Of a DNA stretch of 64,000 nucleotides, positions 49,160-55,018 are shown piece after piece. The notes below the pieces were generated by a model, which worked only from the letters and a program-made list of their open reading frames with translations, was not told where the DNA came from and searched no databases. The DNA lies in the NCBI GenBank assembly GCA_016182605.1, contig JACPGE010000098.1, positions 1 to 64,000 on the forward strand, written 5' to 3'. Every line of letters starts with the position of its first letter. Position 1 is the stretch's first letter. The translations under genes were made by a program, and so were the position numbers. The DNA is from Candidatus Hydrogenedentota bacterium. Lineage in GTDB: Bacteria; Hydrogenedentota; Hydrogenedentia; Hydrogenedentales; JAEUWI01.

Positions 49160-49461
49160 GATGCTCGATCCTCCCGGATTGTGGAAATCGTTTCCATGCC
49201 AAGGATAGAGCATAGCTTATTTGGCCGGAAATGGACAATGGGCTCCAACGCCGCCGATCGGTAAGAAATTCTTGGGGCTCCTTTTGTGTGTAGAACACCG
49301 GATACCGGGTGGCGCGGGCATGTTTTTCGATCTTTTTTTTGGGAAATAGGGGTCAGAAAGCAATCCCAGATGGCAAAGCAGGCCATAAGCCATTTATTAC
49401 AAACACGTTACAAGGTTATAGGGATTTTGAAAACAAGGGCAGATCTTTTTTAAAAATGCGC

Positions 49462-49488
49462 TAAAGTTTTGCCTAAAGTTGCCGATAA
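49462..49488 (+). promoter_or_regulatory. Consensus sigma-28 (FliA) promoter of the flagellin operon
   Basis: TAAAGTTT (49462-49469), 11-bp spacer, GCCGATAA (49481-49488): identical to the enterobacterial FliA consensus in both elements and in spacing. No comparable site precedes flagellin genes 2-4. Transcription should begin near 49496. Confidence 0.9.
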
Positions 49489-50009
49489 AAACATCAGGTA
49501 ACCGGGAACAGGCCCGGATCGAAAGTCAAAATCGACCCGAATTGCTGCAAGGACGCGGCACTTAAGAAACATCAGGGAGGATGTGGCAAGCGATAGGGGT
49601 TTGCGCCCGGCAAGCCGATCTTCGAAGAGACCGGCCCTCAAAGTTGAATCAAAAGCAGTTGATCGAAAATCACTTCGATATTGAGCAGAGCGCATTCAAA
49701 AGGCGCTCGAACGCAGTGCGCGCCAGGACGGCGCCCGCTACGGCACATTGGAACGACAAGAATCGTGACCGCCCGTTGGCGTCACCCTCTTGGAAACAGG
49801 AAGTGATAGCCCAAACCAGTATGGGACGTACTGGCGCGGGTCAACGAGCAACGAGGTCACACCAAACATGGGACAGCAACCCGGAAGCGATTCCGGGGGT
49901 GAACCGGGAAGTCTATGGGACCGTTGCGGGACGCAATGGATGACAGACCGGATCACGGCAAAGTAGCGCAGGGACGCGCTATAGCAACCACTCACGGAGG
50001 AATAGTGAA
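49489..50009 (+). other. Long untranslated leader of the flagellin operon
   Basis: About 515 nt between the sigma-28 start and the first flagellin. An open frame at 49581-49943 has no SD and a non-protein-like composition, so I treat the stretch as leader. It contains AGGGAGGATG near 49574, a further possible CsrA-type site, and ends with the flagellin-1 hairpin. The 300 bp before the promoter, back to 49160, show nothing else. Confidence 0.55.
49964..50001 (+). promoter_or_regulatory. CsrA-type leader hairpin of flagellin 1
   Basis: TAGCGC (49964-49969) pairs with GCGCTA (49976-49981) around the loop AGGGAC. The SD GGAGGA (49996-50001) lies in ACGGAGGA, a second ANGGA, 24 nt downstream of the loop GGA. 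Confidence 0.65.
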
Positions 50010-50825
50010 ATGGGACTTCGCATTAACACCAATACGGCTGCATTCAACACGGCACGTGTGCTGCAGCGCTCCACCCTCGATCTGAACAAATCATTGGAAC
50101 GTCTTTCCAGTGGTCTTCGAATCAACCGTGCGGCTGACGATGCGGCCGGGCTGGCCATCGCCGAGGCGTTTCGCTCGCAAGTGCGGGGCACCGCGGTGGC
50201 AACCCGCAACTCGCAAGACGGGATCAGCCTGGTGCAGACCGCGGAAGGGGCGTTGAGCGAAACGACCAATATCCTTCAGCGTATCCGCGAACTGGCGGTG
50301 CAGTCTGCCAACGGCACGCAGAGCACGGACAACCGCACGGCGCTCAATAACGAAGTGCTTCAATTGCTGGAACAGATTGACGACATCGCGCTGGACACCG
50401 ATTTTAACGGCGTTCGGGTGCTGAGTTCCGCGCAGACGATCACCTTGCAGGCCGGGGCGTTTACGAGCCAGACACTGACAGTGTCCTACTCGGGCGCAAA
50501 GACCAACGATTTGGGCATCAGCGCGGTACGCATATCGAGCGTGGCCTCCGCCGTGGCGGCAATCAGCACGATCGACAATGCGCTCCGGAGCGTCAATTCG
50601 CTGCGAAGCACTTTGGGCGCAACGCAGAACCGGTTGGAATTCACGATCAACACGCTGCAGATTCAGCAGGAAAATGCATCGGCAAGCGAAAGCGCAATTC
50701 GCGACGCGGACATCGCGCAGGAAACGATCCGGTTTACCCGCAATCAAATCCTGGTCAGTGCGGGCACTTCGGTGCTGGCCCAGGCGAACGTGATTCCGCA
50801 GACCGCATTGCAGCTTCTCGGATAA
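50010..50825 (+). CDS. Flagellin 1
   Basis: 271 residues; filament subunit exported by the flagellar type III apparatus. N-terminal D0/D1 (MGLRINTNTAAFNTARVLQR to about 140) and C-terminal D1/D0 (about 180-271, ending ANVIPQTALQLLG) are both present. The central part is short, so the hypervariable D2/D3 domains are absent. The arginines in ERLSSGLRINRAADDAAGLAIAE, a region also seen by eukaryotic TLR5, are conserved. It is the most divergent of four tandem copies (TAVATRNSQDG where others have RNVQDG) and the only one directly after the sigma-28 promoter. SD GGAGGA with nine-base spacing. Confidence 0.97.
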   Translation: MGLRINTNTAAFNTARVLQRSTLDLNKSLERLSSGLRINRAADDAAGLAIAEAFRSQVRGTAVATRNSQDGISLVQTAEGALSETTNILQRIRELAVQSANGTQSTDNRTALNNEVLQLLEQIDDIALDTDFNGVRVLSSAQTITLQAGAFTSQTLTVSYSGAKTNDLGISAVRISSVASAVAAISTIDNALRSVNSLRSTLGATQNRLEFTINTLQIQQENASASESAIRDADIAQETIRFTRNQILVSAGTSVLAQANVIPQTALQLLG

Positions 50826-50838
50826 ATTCTTATTGACC

Positions 50839-50879
50839 GGCCGGAGCCGGACGCCAGAGAATGGCGCCCGGCTCCGGCC
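50839..50879 (+). other. 12-bp GC-rich hairpin between flagellins 1 and 2
   Basis: GGCCGGAGCCGG (50839-50850) pairs with CCGGCTCCGGCC (50868-50879), with an inner CGCCA/TGGCG stem. No T tract follows, so it is more likely an mRNA-stabilising or processing structure than a terminator. Confidence 0.7.
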
Positions 50880-50997
50880 CAGACCCAAAGGAAGAAAGGA
50901 GCAGAAAGAGAGACGGCACGAATCGACAGCAGTACGGGCAATCGCGTTGCCGGTACCGCAGGGCGTCGAACGAATCAATGGACGGTGTTTCTAACTT

Positions 50998-51034
50998 GAA
51001 GGCAAGGGATGCCTTCTACGCTTCTCATGGAGGA
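50998..51034 (+). promoter_or_regulatory. CsrA-type leader hairpin of flagellin 2
   Basis: GAAGGC (50998-51003) pairs with GCCTTC (51011-51016), loop AAGGGAT. The SD is ATGGAGGA (GGAGGA at 51029-51034), 22 nt from loop GGA to SD GGA. Confidence 0.7.
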
Positions 51035-51041
51035 AAGTACA

Positions 51042-51857
51042 ATGGGACTTCGCATTAACACCAATGTTGCATCCTTAAATGCAGCACGGACCCTTCAACG
51101 GTCCACCCAAGCCCTAAACGGCTCGCTGGAACGCCTTTCCAGCGGCCTTCGCATCAACCGCGCGGCGGACGATGCCGCCGGTCTCGCCATTGCGGAAGCC
51201 TTCCGCTCCCAGGTGCGCGGCTCTCAGGTTGCCCAGCGGAACGTGCAAGACGGCGTAAGCCTCGTGCAAACCGCGGAAGGCGCGCTGAGCGAAACCACCA
51301 ACATCCTGCAGCGTGTGCGTGAGCTGGCCGTTCAGTCGTCCAACGGAACGCAGAGCACCGCGAACCGGACGGCGCTGAACACGGAAGTGCAGCAGTTGCT
51401 GCAGCAGATCGACGACATCGCGCTGGACACGGAGTTCAACGGCATTGCGGTGCTGAGCGCCGCACAGACCGTGACGCTCCAGTCGGGCGCCAACACGAGT
51501 CAGACGCTGATCGTGTCGGTGACGGGCGCAAAATCGAACGATCTTGGCGTCAGCGCGGTCACGGTTTCGTCAGTGGCCGGGGCTGTCGCGGCGATCAGCA
51601 CGATCGACCGCGCGCTCTTGAGCGTGAACAGTCTCCGGAGCACCTTTGGCGCATTCCAGAACCGGCTGGAATTCACGCTGAACACGCTCGCCATCCAGGA
51701 AGAGAATGCGTCAGCAGCGGAAAGCTCGATTCGTGACGCGGATATTGCCCGCGAAACGATCGAATTCACACGCAATCAGATCCTGGTCAGCGCGGGCACC
51801 ACCGTGTTGGCACAATCCAACGTGGTTCCGCAGACCGCACTCCAATTGCTCGGATAG
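51042..51857 (+). CDS. Flagellin 2
   Basis: 271 residues with the same D0-D1 only architecture as its neighbours. I start at the ATG at 51042, where MGLRINTNVASLN aligns with the other copies and GGAGGA lies seven bases upstream; an ATG 33 bases earlier is inside the hairpin. From about residue 60 on the DNA is nearly identical to flagellin 4 (53000-53776) although flagellin 3 lies between, suggesting gene conversion or an older block duplication. Ends SNVVPQTALQLLG. Likely co-transcribed from the sigma-28 promoter with copies 1, 3 and 4. Confidence 0.97.
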   Translation: MGLRINTNVASLNAARTLQRSTQALNGSLERLSSGLRINRAADDAAGLAIAEAFRSQVRGSQVAQRNVQDGVSLVQTAEGALSETTNILQRVRELAVQSSNGTQSTANRTALNTEVQQLLQQIDDIALDTEFNGIAVLSAAQTVTLQSGANTSQTLIVSVTGAKSNDLGVSAVTVSSVAGAVAAISTIDRALLSVNSLRSTFGAFQNRLEFTLNTLAIQEENASAAESSIRDADIARETIEFTRNQILVSAGTTVLAQSNVVPQTALQLLG

Positions 51858-51897
51858 TCCGTTCGGGCTTCCGGGTAGTGATACATCTGGCACTACA

Positions 51898-51937
51898 GGC
51901 TGCGCACCCGCCCCATTCCAGGGACGGGTGCGCAGCC
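51898..51937 (+). other. 13-bp GC-rich hairpin between flagellins 2 and 3
   Basis: GGCTGCGCACCCG (51898-51910) pairs with CGGGTGCGCAGCC (51925-51937), without a T tract. It is the same kind of structure as at 50839-50879 but unrelated in sequence. Confidence 0.7.
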
Positions 51938-52039
51938 GGCCAAATCCAAGCTGACAAAAGAAAGGAGGGCAGAATAATACAGCGGGACGGGTTAGACCAA
52001 GAAAGCTAACCGGTGCCCGCGCAGTAAAATGCACGCCAT

Positions 52040-52075
52040 TTGGGGCAGGGATACCCCAATTGGCACTCACGGAGG
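52040..52075 (+). promoter_or_regulatory. CsrA-type leader hairpin of flagellin 3
   Basis: TTGGGG (52040-52045) pairs with CCCCAA (52054-52059), loop CAGGGATA. The SD is ACGGAGG (GGAGG at 52071-52075), 22 nt from loop GGA to SD GGA. Confidence 0.7.
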
Positions 52076-52082
52076 CAAGAAA

Positions 52083-52898
52083 ATGGGACTCAGGATCAAT
52101 ACGAATATTGCGGCGCTGAACACGAGCCGCACGCTTTCGCGATCCACAACTCAGCTCAATACGAGTCTGGAGCGCCTGAGCAGCGGCCTGCGCATCAACC
52201 GGGCATCGGATGATGCCGCGGGCCTCGCTATTGCCGAGGGTTTCCAGTCCCAGGTTCGCGGCGCCATCGTGGCGCAACGAAATGTGCAGGATGGCGTGAG
52301 TCTGGTTCAAACCGCCGAAGGCGCGCTGAGCGAGACGACCGGCATTCTGCAACGAGTCCGGGAGCTGGCGGTACAAGCGTCCAACGGGACGCAGAGCACC
52401 GCCAACCGGCAGGCGTTAAACACAGAAGTGCAACAACTGCTTCAGCAGATCGATGACATCGCGTTGGACACGGAGTTCAACGGGATCAGTGTGCTGAGCG
52501 CAGCGCAGACCGTGACCCTTCAATCGGGCGCGAATACAAGCCAGACGCTGGTGGTCACGGTGAACGGCGCCAAATCGAACGATCTTGGCGTCAACACCGT
52601 GGTGGTATCCAGCGTGGCCCTGGCCGTATCCGCCCTGAGCACGATCGACCGTGCGATCATCAGCGTAGATAGTTTGCGCAGCACCTTCGGCGCGTTTCAG
52701 AACCGGCTCGAGTTCACCCTGAATACACTTGCGATTCAGCAGGAGAACGCGGCCGCGGCGGAAAGCGTGATTCGTGACGCTGACATCGCCGCGGAGACCA
52801 TCCATTTCACCCGGAATCAGATTCTGGTGGAAGCGGGCACGTCGGTTCTGGCTCAAGCAAATGTTGTGCCCCAATCCGCGTTAACGCTTCTCGGTTAG
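52083..52898 (+). CDS. Flagellin 3
   Basis: 271 residues, D0-D1 only. The start at 52083 follows GGAGGCAAG; a longer in-frame start at 52029 would run through the hairpin. Distinguishing features against copies 2 and 4 are NIAALNTSRTLSRSTTQLN at the start, VVSSVALAVSALSTIDRAI in the centre and EAGTSVLAQANVVPQSALTLLG at the end. It keeps the conserved ERLSSGLRINR and FTRNQIL segments. Subunit variation in a multi-flagellin filament is likely, with position along the filament unknown. Confidence 0.97.
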   Translation: MGLRINTNIAALNTSRTLSRSTTQLNTSLERLSSGLRINRASDDAAGLAIAEGFQSQVRGAIVAQRNVQDGVSLVQTAEGALSETTGILQRVRELAVQASNGTQSTANRQALNTEVQQLLQQIDDIALDTEFNGISVLSAAQTVTLQSGANTSQTLVVTVNGAKSNDLGVNTVVVSSVALAVSALSTIDRAIISVDSLRSTFGAFQNRLEFTLNTLAIQQENAAAAESVIRDADIAAETIHFTRNQILVEAGTSVLAQANVVPQSALTLLG

Positions 52899-52918
52899 AC
52901 AGTCTAAGCCAATGCGCT

Positions 52919-52953
52919 GTGGGTAGGGATGCCCACCGTGAAATCAAGGAGGA
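52919..52953 (+). promoter_or_regulatory. CsrA-type leader hairpin of flagellin 4
   Basis: GTGGG (52919-52923) pairs with CCCAC (52932-52936), loop TAGGGATG. The SD is AAGGAGG (about 52946-52952), 21 nt from loop GGA to SD GGA. Confidence 0.65.
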
Positions 52954-52960
52954 AAGTACT

Positions 52961-53776
52961 ATGGGACTACGCATCAATACAAACGTGGCGTCGCTGAATT
53001 CAGCACGGACGCTTAACCGGTCAACCTTAAGCTTGAATCAATCCCTGGAACGCCTTTCCAGCGGATTGCGGATCAATCGGGCCGCGGATGACGCGGCAGG
53101 TTTGGCCATTGCGGAAGGATTCCGCTCCCAGGTTCGTGGCTCGCAGGTGGCCCAGCGGAACGTGCAGGACGGCGTCAGTCTTGTGCAGACCGCGGAAGGC
53201 GCACTGAGCGAAACCACCAACATCCTGCAACGTGTGCGTGAGCTGGCCGTTCAGTCGTCCAACGGAACGCAAAGTACCGCGAACCGGACGGCGCTGAACA
53301 CGGAAGTGCAACAGTTGCTGCAGCAGATCGATGATATCGCCCTCGACACGGAGTTCAACGGCATTGCGGTGCTAAGCGCCGCACAGACCGTGACGCTTCA
53401 GTCGGGCGCCAATACGAGTCAGACGCTGATCGTATCGGTGTCGGGCGCGAAATCGAGCGATCTTGGCGTCAGCGCGGTCACCGTTTCCTCGGTGGCGGGG
53501 GCAGTCGCGGCGATCAGCACGATCGACCGCGCGCTGCTCAGTGTGAACAGCCTCAGAAGCACCTTTGGTGCGTTCCAGAACCGGCTGGAATTCACGCTGA
53601 ACACGCTGGCGATTCAGGAAGAAAACGCCGCAGCCGCAGAAAGTGCGATTCGTGACGCGGATATTGCCCGCGAAACGATCGAATTTACCCGCAACCAGAT
53701 CCTGGTCAGCGCGGGCACAACCGTATTGGCCCAGTCAAACGTAGTTCCTCAGACGGCGCTGACGCTGCTGAGGTAA
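52961..53776 (+). CDS. Flagellin 4
   Basis: 271 residues, D0-D1 only, nearly identical to flagellin 2 over the middle and C-terminal thirds at both protein and DNA level. Differences cluster in the first 40 residues (SARTLNRSTLSLNQ against AARTLQRSTQALNG) and at the last residues (LTLLR against LQLLG). The ATG at 52961 follows AAGGAGGAAAG. The stop is 21 bp before flaG. Confidence 0.97.
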   Translation: MGLRINTNVASLNSARTLNRSTLSLNQSLERLSSGLRINRAADDAAGLAIAEGFRSQVRGSQVAQRNVQDGVSLVQTAEGALSETTNILQRVRELAVQSSNGTQSTANRTALNTEVQQLLQQIDDIALDTEFNGIAVLSAAQTVTLQSGANTSQTLIVSVSGAKSSDLGVSAVTVSSVAGAVAAISTIDRALLSVNSLRSTFGAFQNRLEFTLNTLAIQEENAAAAESAIRDADIARETIEFTRNQILVSAGTTVLAQSNVVPQTALTLLR

Positions 53777-53797
53777 TAGCGTGATGGGAGTTGGAGC

Positions 53798-54148
53798 ATG
53801 GAAATCAACAGGCTTCCGCTGCGGGGGCTCGCGGCCCTGCCCCAGAGAAGCGTTGTAAGCCCCTTTGCTCCCCGCTCCGTTGAACCTACACGGCCGGCGC
53901 AGTTGACCGGCCATGCAACTCAATTGAGTGAGGAACAGACGAAGGACACCGCGAGGTCCGGGATCGGCTCTGCCACATCGGCAATCAGCGGCACCCGCCT
54001 TCGGGTGGATGAGCGCACGAAGCGGATTGTGGCACAGTTTGTGGACGAGAGTAACAACGTGGTGCGGCAGTTGCCGCCCGAAGAACTGCTGAGAATATCG
54101 GCACAATTCGAGCGGCTGCAAGGTCTGCTCTTCGATGAGAAGGGCTAA
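53798..54148 (+). CDS. flaG: FlaG-family flagellar protein
   Basis: 116 residues. The C-terminal half (TRLRVDERTKRIVAQFVDESNNVVRQLPPEELLRISAQ) matches the FlaG core, in which the VVRQLPPEE motif is invariant. The N-terminal half is a Pro/Ser/Thr-rich, probably disordered linker. FlaG affects filament length or assembly in several bacteria and is commonly encoded just after flagellin, as here. It is the last gene of the operon, followed by a strong terminator 12 bp beyond its stop. Confidence 0.88.
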   Translation: MEINRLPLRGLAALPQRSVVSPFAPRSVEPTRPAQLTGHATQLSEEQTKDTARSGIGSATSAISGTRLRVDERTKRIVAQFVDESNNVVRQLPPEELLRISAQFERLQGLLFDEKG

Positions 54149-54160
54149 GCGCGCCACTGA

Positions 54161-54193
54161 AACGCCCCGGGACTACGGCCCCGGGGCGTTTTT
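54161..54193 (+). terminator. Intrinsic terminator of the flagellin operon
   Basis: AACGCCCCGG (54161-54170) pairs with CCGGGGCGTT (54181-54190), then a run of T. It is the only T-tailed hairpin in the 4.7 kb from the sigma-28 promoter to here. Confidence 0.9.
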
Positions 54194-54289
54194 CTCTCTT
54201 CCAGCGGCGGGGCGCTCCCGCGCATGAACCATGCCCCCGGGTGTGGTAGAGTAAGGGCAACTGTGGCAGCGGCCAAGGAGGACCCGTTT

Positions 54290-55018
54290 ATGGACACCAT
54301 TCGGATTTCCGGGGTGCAGATGCTCGTGGGGCCGTCCAAGAAAGAGAACCTTGACCGGATTCTCGCCCACATCGCGAACCGCGATTGTGACTATATGCTG
54401 TTTCCGGAAATGAGTCTGACCGGGTATAACGGCGGATTCAGCGCCGCGCGCACCCAAGAGGCGTGGAAACAGATTGCCGCGGCGTGCCGGCACGCCTATG
54501 TGACTGCGATCATCGGCACGGGCGTGAAGAATGACGGCCACACCCATATACAATCCCGCATCTACACCGGGGCGGGAGAGTTGCTCGGCACCCAGGAAAA
54601 ACTGGTTCCCACGGAGCCGGACCGCAAGTGGTGCATGCCGGGCGAAGAGTTGCGGGTCTTCGAACAGAACGGGATGCATTTCGGCTGCCTCATCTGCAAT
54701 GACCTGTGGGTCTCTCCCGGCTGCGGGCCCTACCCCGATCCCCGGTTGAGCTGGCAGTTGGGGCAGCGCGGGGCACAGATTATCTTCCACAGTGCCCATT
54801 CCGGCACAGACCGCCGCTACGCGGCCTACCACGATAGCAACCTGCGACTCCGCGCATGGGAAAGCAAGCTCTATATCGCGACCGTCAACGCGGCTTCGGC
54901 AAATGGGCCGCTAAATGCCGCCAGCGGGGTGGTGGGTCCAGACGGCGAATGGCGGGTGCAGTGCCCGTTGGAAGGCGAGCACGTCTACTCCTATGATCTG
55001 GAAATAGAAACCGCGTAG
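54290..55018 (+). CDS. Carbon-nitrogen hydrolase (nitrilase superfamily)
   Basis: 242 residues from the ATG at 54290 after AAGGAGG; the open frame 66 bases longer has no SD. The Glu-Lys-Cys triad is visible: Glu40 in MLFPEMSLTG, Lys104 in TQEKLVP and Cys136 in GCLICNDLW. It is cytoplasmic, as no signal is seen. Members hydrolyse amides such as N-carbamoyl compounds or omega-amides; the specific substrate is not apparent. The flagellin terminator is 97 bp upstream, so it is an independent unit, possibly leading the metallohydrolase and sulfotransferase genes. Confidence 0.85.
   Translation: MDTIRISGVQMLVGPSKKENLDRILAHIANRDCDYMLFPEMSLTGYNGGFSAARTQEAWKQIAAACRHAYVTAIIGTGVKNDGHTHIQSRIYTGAGELLGTQEKLVPTEPDRKWCMPGEELRVFEQNGMHFGCLICNDLWVSPGCGPYPDPRLSWQLGQRGAQIIFHSAHSGTDRRYAAYHDSNLRLRAWESKLYIATVNAASANGPLNAASGVVGPDGEWRVQCPLEGEHVYSYDLEIETA

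Follow-up and report, generated by a model that had tools for sequence, protein, structure and literature searches.

Can each cistron of a polycistronic flagellin mRNA carry a translational switch of its own? The question is raised by a stretch of 64,000 nucleotides (the window; contig JACPGE010000098.1 of assembly GCA_016182605.1, labelled C35 and G000 here) from the metagenome-assembled genome (MAG) of an uncultured Candidatus Hydrogenedentota bacterium, in which four flagellin genes, whose close relatives carry Hydrogenedentota labels, lie in tandem. A preliminary description of the window had proposed that each of these genes is preceded by a hairpin which, together with the Shine-Dalgarno (SD) sequence, forms a target for the repressor CsrA, with FliW as its antagonist. 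Our analysis indicates that this is very probably the case. By every sequence test applied, the module belongs to the CsrA-FliW kind of flagellin leader, and each cistron is predicted to have a two-site leader of its own, repressed by CsrA and released by FliW.

The four leaders contain the parts that had been described (Table 1), namely a stem, a loop with the motif ANGGA and a second ANGGA within the SD (ACGGA, ATGGA, ACGGA and AAGGA for flagellins 1 to 4), with 24, 22, 22 and 21 nt, respectively, between the GGA of the loop and that of the SD. The start codons lie at 50010, 51042, 52083 and 52961, those of genes 2 to 4 having been placed at earlier in-frame codons by the program which listed the open reading frames (ORFs). 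In dinucleotide shuffles, the chance of finding a hairpin in the right interval (at least four Watson-Crick pairs and an ANGGA loop) was 0.2-0.3% per leader. When 113 ORFs that have an SD and encode 100 aa or more, drawn from the window and from other stretches of the same genome, were scanned, only the four flagellins and one weak match were retrieved. All four stems are also contained in the minimum-energy fold of the RNA.

We compared 153 distinct Hydrogenedentota flagellins, collected from approximately 30 related genomes and from public contigs, which fall into three classes. Class A comprises 99 genes, located mostly in tandem operons, and the hairpin is present ahead of 78 of them, compared with 1.7 expected from shuffles. 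Class B consists of 31 lone genes, 29 of which have a hairpin at a 3-bp criterion (1.2 expected); this is a second form of the structure, with 3 bp in its apical stem and with an internal loop (GCC-GA-UGC[AAGGAU]GCA-AA-GGC). The 23 divergent flagellins of class C are not preceded by a sigma28 promoter, and the hairpin was found in only 3 of them. Both minor classes are represented in the genome analysed here: a class B gene (G000:C12:28906-29322, L119), with a sigma28 promoter approximately 80-90 nt upstream and a hairpin whose internal loop consists of A and G, and a class C gene (G000:C104:12073-12486, L120).

In these relatives the hairpins recur at a similar spacing, with mostly 21-26 nt between the two GGA triplets. 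When 59 class A hairpins were aligned, 87.4% of the cells were found to pair, all 7 stem pairs varied on both sides, and the covariation score reached 0.674, compared with 0.213 after shuffling and at most 0.183 with slid partners; the covariation was also seen in a second alignment. The second base of the loop motif varies freely (AAGGA, ACGGA, ATGGA, AGGGA), with the A and the GGA fixed. The covariation across Hydrogenedentota bears out the proposal that loop and spacing are conserved in spite of differing stems. In a covariance model search of the genome, the four flagellin leaders ranked first (34-50 bits), ahead of a next match at 20 bits, and leader 2 was still recovered, at 34.2 bits, when excluded from the building of the model (R1). 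As regards further targets in this genome, most of the lower-ranking matches have no GGA in the loop and resemble chance occurrences, although the search scored only 150 first-look candidates and weaker targets may be missed. One weak 20-bit match (L200/L281, G000:C4:61271-61314) precedes a gene for a 241-aa protein with EF-hand-like repeats; its stem bears ATGGGAC and is accompanied by a good SD.

The regulator and its proposed antagonist are both encoded in the genome, which has a single csrA gene adjoining fliW. CsrA is 73 aa long and contains I51 and N55 as well as L4, R6 and R44, all three of which are RNA-binding residues, R44 being the RNA-binding arginine. Residues of the I/V51 and N55 type are needed for FliW by CsrA of Campylobacter jejuni and Bacillus subtilis (PMC7829508), and the protein encoded here, with I51, N55 and a C-terminal extension, has the features of a FliW-binding CsrA as defined in that study. 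Moreover, CsrA and FliW each match the solved CsrA-FliW complex 5dmb. Among 40 relatives, flagellin was found in 32 and csrA in 29, and the complete-looking genomes without flagellin (G016, G022, G029, G031, G037 and G039) are likewise without csrA.

A similar association was observed outside Hydrogenedentota. In csrA-bearing genomes (mostly Bdellovibrionota) the hairpin was present in 40 of 66 leaders (1.25 expected), whereas the same detector found it in none of 16 leaders from csrA-less genomes, all or nearly all of which are Planctomycetota. Since this contrast ran along phylum, Planctomycetota with csrA were also sampled, and within this phylum the hairpin was found in 7 of 17 leaders with csrA and in 0 of 16 without it (p=0.007, which is optimistic because the leaders are not independent). 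Several Planctomycetota (G108, G129, G147, G162 and G177) have as many as 9 to 17 csrA-like genes per genome.

These comparisons also bear on a different explanation, in which the hairpins act independently of CsrA, either as standby sites for the ribosome or as elements of mRNA stability, with an AGGGA loop that imitates an SD. Flagellin mRNAs are generally strongly translated, which would suit such a role, and many of the loops do read AGGGA. However, a free second loop base next to a fixed A and GGA is what CsrA recognition predicts, the csrA-less Planctomycetota are without the hairpin though their flagellins mostly retain an SD, and the structure is mostly missing from class C. We therefore regard a CsrA-independent role as very unlikely.

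A two-site leader targeted by CsrA also has a close experimental counterpart. In the flaA leader of C. jejuni, an ANGGA hexaloop on the ribosome binding site (RBS) is preceded, at a distance of 21 nt, by another one, with compensatory changes in relatives; repression by CsrA was shown by mutation, gel shift and footprinting, and the leader was found to titrate CsrA (PMC4894983). The likeness extends to the order of the parts (an upstream stem-loop with ANGGA, then ANGGA at the RBS), the sigma28 dependence of the gene, the antagonist FliW and a GGA second codon. Because the layout matches that of this proven leader, repression by CsrA antagonised by FliW is very likely. The distances of 21-24 nt in the window fall inside the range over which CsrA bridges two sites (10-63 nt, best above 18; PMC7652899).

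On the basis of the homologous systems of B. subtilis (hag) and C. jejuni (flaA), we infer binding, repression and release as follows. One face of a CsrA dimer would occupy the ANGGA hexaloop of the hairpin and the other the ANGGA of the SD, and this bridging would block ribosome entry at each flagellin cistron. FliW would bind the extended C-terminus of CsrA (N55, I51) and lift the block during flagellin export. With four such switches on one sigma28 transcript, all of the flagellin genes could obey the same homeostatic signal.

Several observations weigh against this interpretation. The single-sequence folding z-scores of the four leaders are ordinary (-0.6 to -2.0); folding energy was accordingly rejected as evidence, and the case for the hairpins rests on covariation. 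The low-GC family f7 (L146, L165 and L171) has csrA, yet its hairpins are weak or missing. Leaders of the same clade are not independent, so that few evolutionary events underlie the association with csrA. Finally, three sampled flagellin-bearing Hydrogenedentota are without detectable csrA. Two of them (G003 and G023) are incomplete genomes, and the third (G034) is 94% complete, yet its leaders bear hairpins; here the absence of csrA is likely a gap in the MAG, since the gene is present in G027, which belongs to the same genus.

The type of the hairpin follows the position of the gene in the operon. In operons with at least two class A genes, a GCGC stem was found in 23 of 29 first leaders, compared with 1 of 53 later ones (p about 1e-13). 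The later cistrons have GG-rich stems, with loops that mostly read AGGGAU and lie approximately 3 nt nearer the start. It might be argued that the hairpins resemble one another merely because gene and leader were recently duplicated together, and for 51 of 77 operon flagellins the closest protein relative is indeed an operon-mate. The stems of the four leaders nevertheless differ, in a manner compensatory among the paralogues, while loop and spacing agree, and the leader type tracks operon position and not protein relatedness, which makes mere duplication scarcely credible. Since operon-mates are in most cases the closest protein relatives and the stem types follow position all the same, the leaders hold a positional identity while the coding regions have been homogenised or recently duplicated. 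A natural guess is that the two stem types differ in CsrA affinity, and they could thus let the first and the later cistrons be set differently.

The four flagellins, together with FlaG, are likely carried on a single transcript of approximately 4.7 kb (about 49495 to 54198), as there is one sigma28 promoter and one terminator, the latter located after FlaG (Table 1). This agrees with the polycistronic mRNA assumed in the preliminary description. In the operons of relatives, the sigma28 score was 13-16 of 16 upstream of nearly all first flagellins with enough upstream sequence, and at most 12, with one exception, upstream of the downstream cistrons, ahead of which matches to sigma54 promoters occurred at chance frequency only. 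Strong hairpins without a T run follow the flagellin stop codons in many of these operons, in a similar place and with a different sequence; it is possible that such intercistronic hairpins shield processed 3' ends, as processing or stability elements.

Table 1. Positions of the flagellin operon features in the window
Feature	Positions	Strand	Remarks
sigma28 (FliA) promoter	49462..49488	+	TAAAGTTT-N11-GCCGATAA; perfect match; sole one in the window
ORF-less module, hairpin a	49543..49560	+	TGCTGC[AAGGAC]GCGGCA; covarying stem, 18 operons
ORF-less module, hairpin b	49569..49584	+	ACATC[AGGGAG]GATGT; SD-like loop; no start codon at normal spacing
Leader hairpin	49720..49734	+	GCGC[CAGGACG]GCGC
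Leader hairpin	49816..49834	+	CCAGTA[TGGGACG]TACTGG
Leader hairpin	49921..49939	+	CCGTTG[CGGGACG]CAATGG
Flagellin-1 hairpin	49963..49982	+	GTAGCGC[AGGGAC]GCGCTAT; GCGC type
Flagellin-1 SD	49994..50000	+	ACGGAGG; second CsrA-type site
Flagellin 1	50010..50825	+	271 aa; PF00669, PF00700
Intercistronic hairpin	50839..50879	+	strong; without T run
Flagellin-2 hairpin	50998..51016	+	GAAGGC[AAGGGAT]GCCTTC; GG type
Flagellin-2 SD	51027..51033	+	ATGGAGG
Flagellin 2	51042..51857	+	271 aa
Intercistronic hairpin	51898..51937	+	strong; without T run
Flagellin-3 hairpin	52040..52059	+	TTGGGG[CAGGGATA]CCCCAA; GG type
Flagellin-3 SD	52069..52075	+	ACGGAGG
Flagellin 3	52083..52898	+	271 aa
Flagellin-4 hairpin	52919..52936	+	GTGGGT[AGGGAT]GCCCAC; GG type
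Flagellin-4 SD	52946..52952	+	AAGGAGG
Flagellin 4	52961..53776	+	271 aa
FlaG	53798..54148	+	final cistron; leader of 21 nt, too short for the hairpin
Intrinsic terminator of the operon	54159..54192	+	only one found on this strand in 49200-54300

Another feature of the operon is the length of the sigma28 leader, since the promoter is separated from the first flagellin by roughly 500 nt here and typically by 200-650 nt in relatives. Near its 5' end lies a copy of the module that is not followed by an ORF, in which the GGA of hairpin b is placed 25 nt downstream of that of hairpin a. In about half of the long leaders, a pair of ANGGA sites with a spacing of 20-26 nt is found between about +40 and +86 from the promoter, and in relatives the parts are a covarying hairpin followed by ATC[ANGGAG]GAT. 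The covariation of the module hairpin, scored on a nearly gapless alignment, is 0.527 (against 0.149) and spans several families. Most modules have no start codon at a normal distance, and across the different operons there is no consistent start codon and no conserved ORF, for which reason a short leader peptide was rejected, and a search of the region against Rfam gave no relevant family and no match to a CsrA-sponge RNA family. In 36 long leaders (12.9 kb, with the flagellin RBS left out) there are 42 hairpins with ANGGA loops, compared with 3.0 +/- 1.8 in shuffles, and 77 with GGA loops (13.9 expected). In a comparison of all 64 trinucleotides, GGA was the most enriched in hairpin loops (77 versus 15).

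We favour a CsrA-binding role for the ORF-less module. As an extension of the CsrA-FliW switch, not a replacement for it, the 5' part of the leader (module and GGA hairpins) might constitute a built-in CsrA decoy, through which a burst of flagellin mRNA would titrate CsrA and so relax the block on its own cistrons as well as on other flagellar mRNAs. This is plausible, though we consider it distinctly less likely than not. It is suggested by the excess of ANGGA and GGA loops over shuffles, by the covarying stem without a consistent start codon, and by the module L134, whose second loop reads AAGGAC, so that the GGA hairpin is retained where the SD is not; the leaders of C. jejuni flaA and Salmonella fim, which titrate CsrA, provide precedents. 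On the other hand, the module is missing from some operons, shuffles understate natural hairpins (all trinucleotides together are enriched 1.6-fold), and the module could bind CsrA for another purpose; CsrA bound there may, for example, act on mRNA stability or on elongation. Tentatively, then, the mRNA of the flagellin operon could be both target and sponge, the 5' module and GGA hairpins soaking up CsrA and the cistron switches having a position-specific strength.

The module might also be the leftover leader of a lost class B flagellin gene, whose promoter was taken over by the operon. The order of its parts is that of class B (sigma28 promoter, hairpin, ATC[ACGGAG]GAT and an ATG 75-93 nt from the promoter), some modules (L054, L141 and L189) bear the internal loop of class B, and a similar possible remnant of a lost gene, comprising a hairpin with the loop AAGGGAT, an SD and ATGGGACC, is located between two flagellins of another operon (L297, G015:C5:90794-90839). 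Such a leftover would be expected to decay, yet several families have retained the module, with covarying stems, and we think this origin rather unlikely.

Comparison with known systems shows what is new in this locus. In C. jejuni, flaA, flaB and flaG each have a CsrA leader on their mRNA. The flaA leader differs from those described here in that it is a 45-nt leader of a single gene, whereas the module is found here on four cistrons of one mRNA, the SD site is not always within a hairpin of its own, and upstream of them lies a long leader that includes an ORF-less copy. B. subtilis hag likewise has two CsrA sites, one of them on the SD, fliW beside csrA and an extended, N55-bearing CsrA (PMC7652899, PMC6529632, PMC7829508), but it is a single flagellin gene for which no per-cistron array has been reported. 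In Escherichia coli glgC, a high-affinity hairpin-loop site and an SD site are bridged by a CsrA dimer (PMC7652899); this is, however, a metabolic gene, and the antagonists are the small RNAs (sRNAs) CsrB/C and not FliW. In the spirochetes Leptospira, Treponema denticola and Borrelia, several flagellin genes of one species have flaB leaders in which a CsrA site close to the SD has been predicted or shown (PMC8668096, PMC9481697), but the site is on or beside the SD, and no conserved hairpin-plus-SD module per cistron has been reported. A possible analogue of the long leader is offered by the Salmonella fimAICDHF leader and by CsrB/RsmZ, GGA-site RNAs which titrate CsrA (PMC4894983), although RNAs of the CsrB type are separate sRNAs.

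The preliminary description knew of no earlier account of the arrangement. This claim is to be narrowed, since several flagellar mRNAs with CsrA leaders are known within one species (C. jejuni), and CsrA binding between the genes of polycistronic mRNAs is already known. In a literature search of open-licence papers we found no earlier account of tandem flagellin genes in which every cistron has a switch. What is new beyond these cases is the per-cistron array, the positional stem types and the 5' module without an ORF. A few cultured species are known to control flagellin through CsrA and FliW; here such control is predicted as an array, in a phylum known mainly from metagenomes, with strong covariation and with natural controls provided both by these genomes themselves and by Planctomycetota without csrA. 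The system lends itself readily to testing the way in which a single regulator adjusts the proportions of several flagellins encoded on a shared mRNA, and the 5' module offers a specific candidate for a decoy that forms part of a target mRNA.

A bias was also noted at the second codon. Of the 99 class A flagellins, 86 have GGA there (in the window, 50010-50018 for the first gene), compared with 13% of their glycine codons elsewhere; class B prefers GGT. This codon may be a third CsrA site, although the hairpin-poor class C likewise favours GGA at this position (12 of 23) and in C. jejuni flaA the GGA second codon is not protected by CsrA (PMC4894983).

Two further observations concern the genomes compared. 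Contigs labelled Nitrospiraceae (OTbin.67; L041 and L059) bear flagellins of the Hydrogenedentota type and probably represent a mislabelled or contaminated MAG. In G004, a 22-nt hairpin repeat with an identical model score of 16.2 bits is dispersed over some 30 or more places on many contigs.

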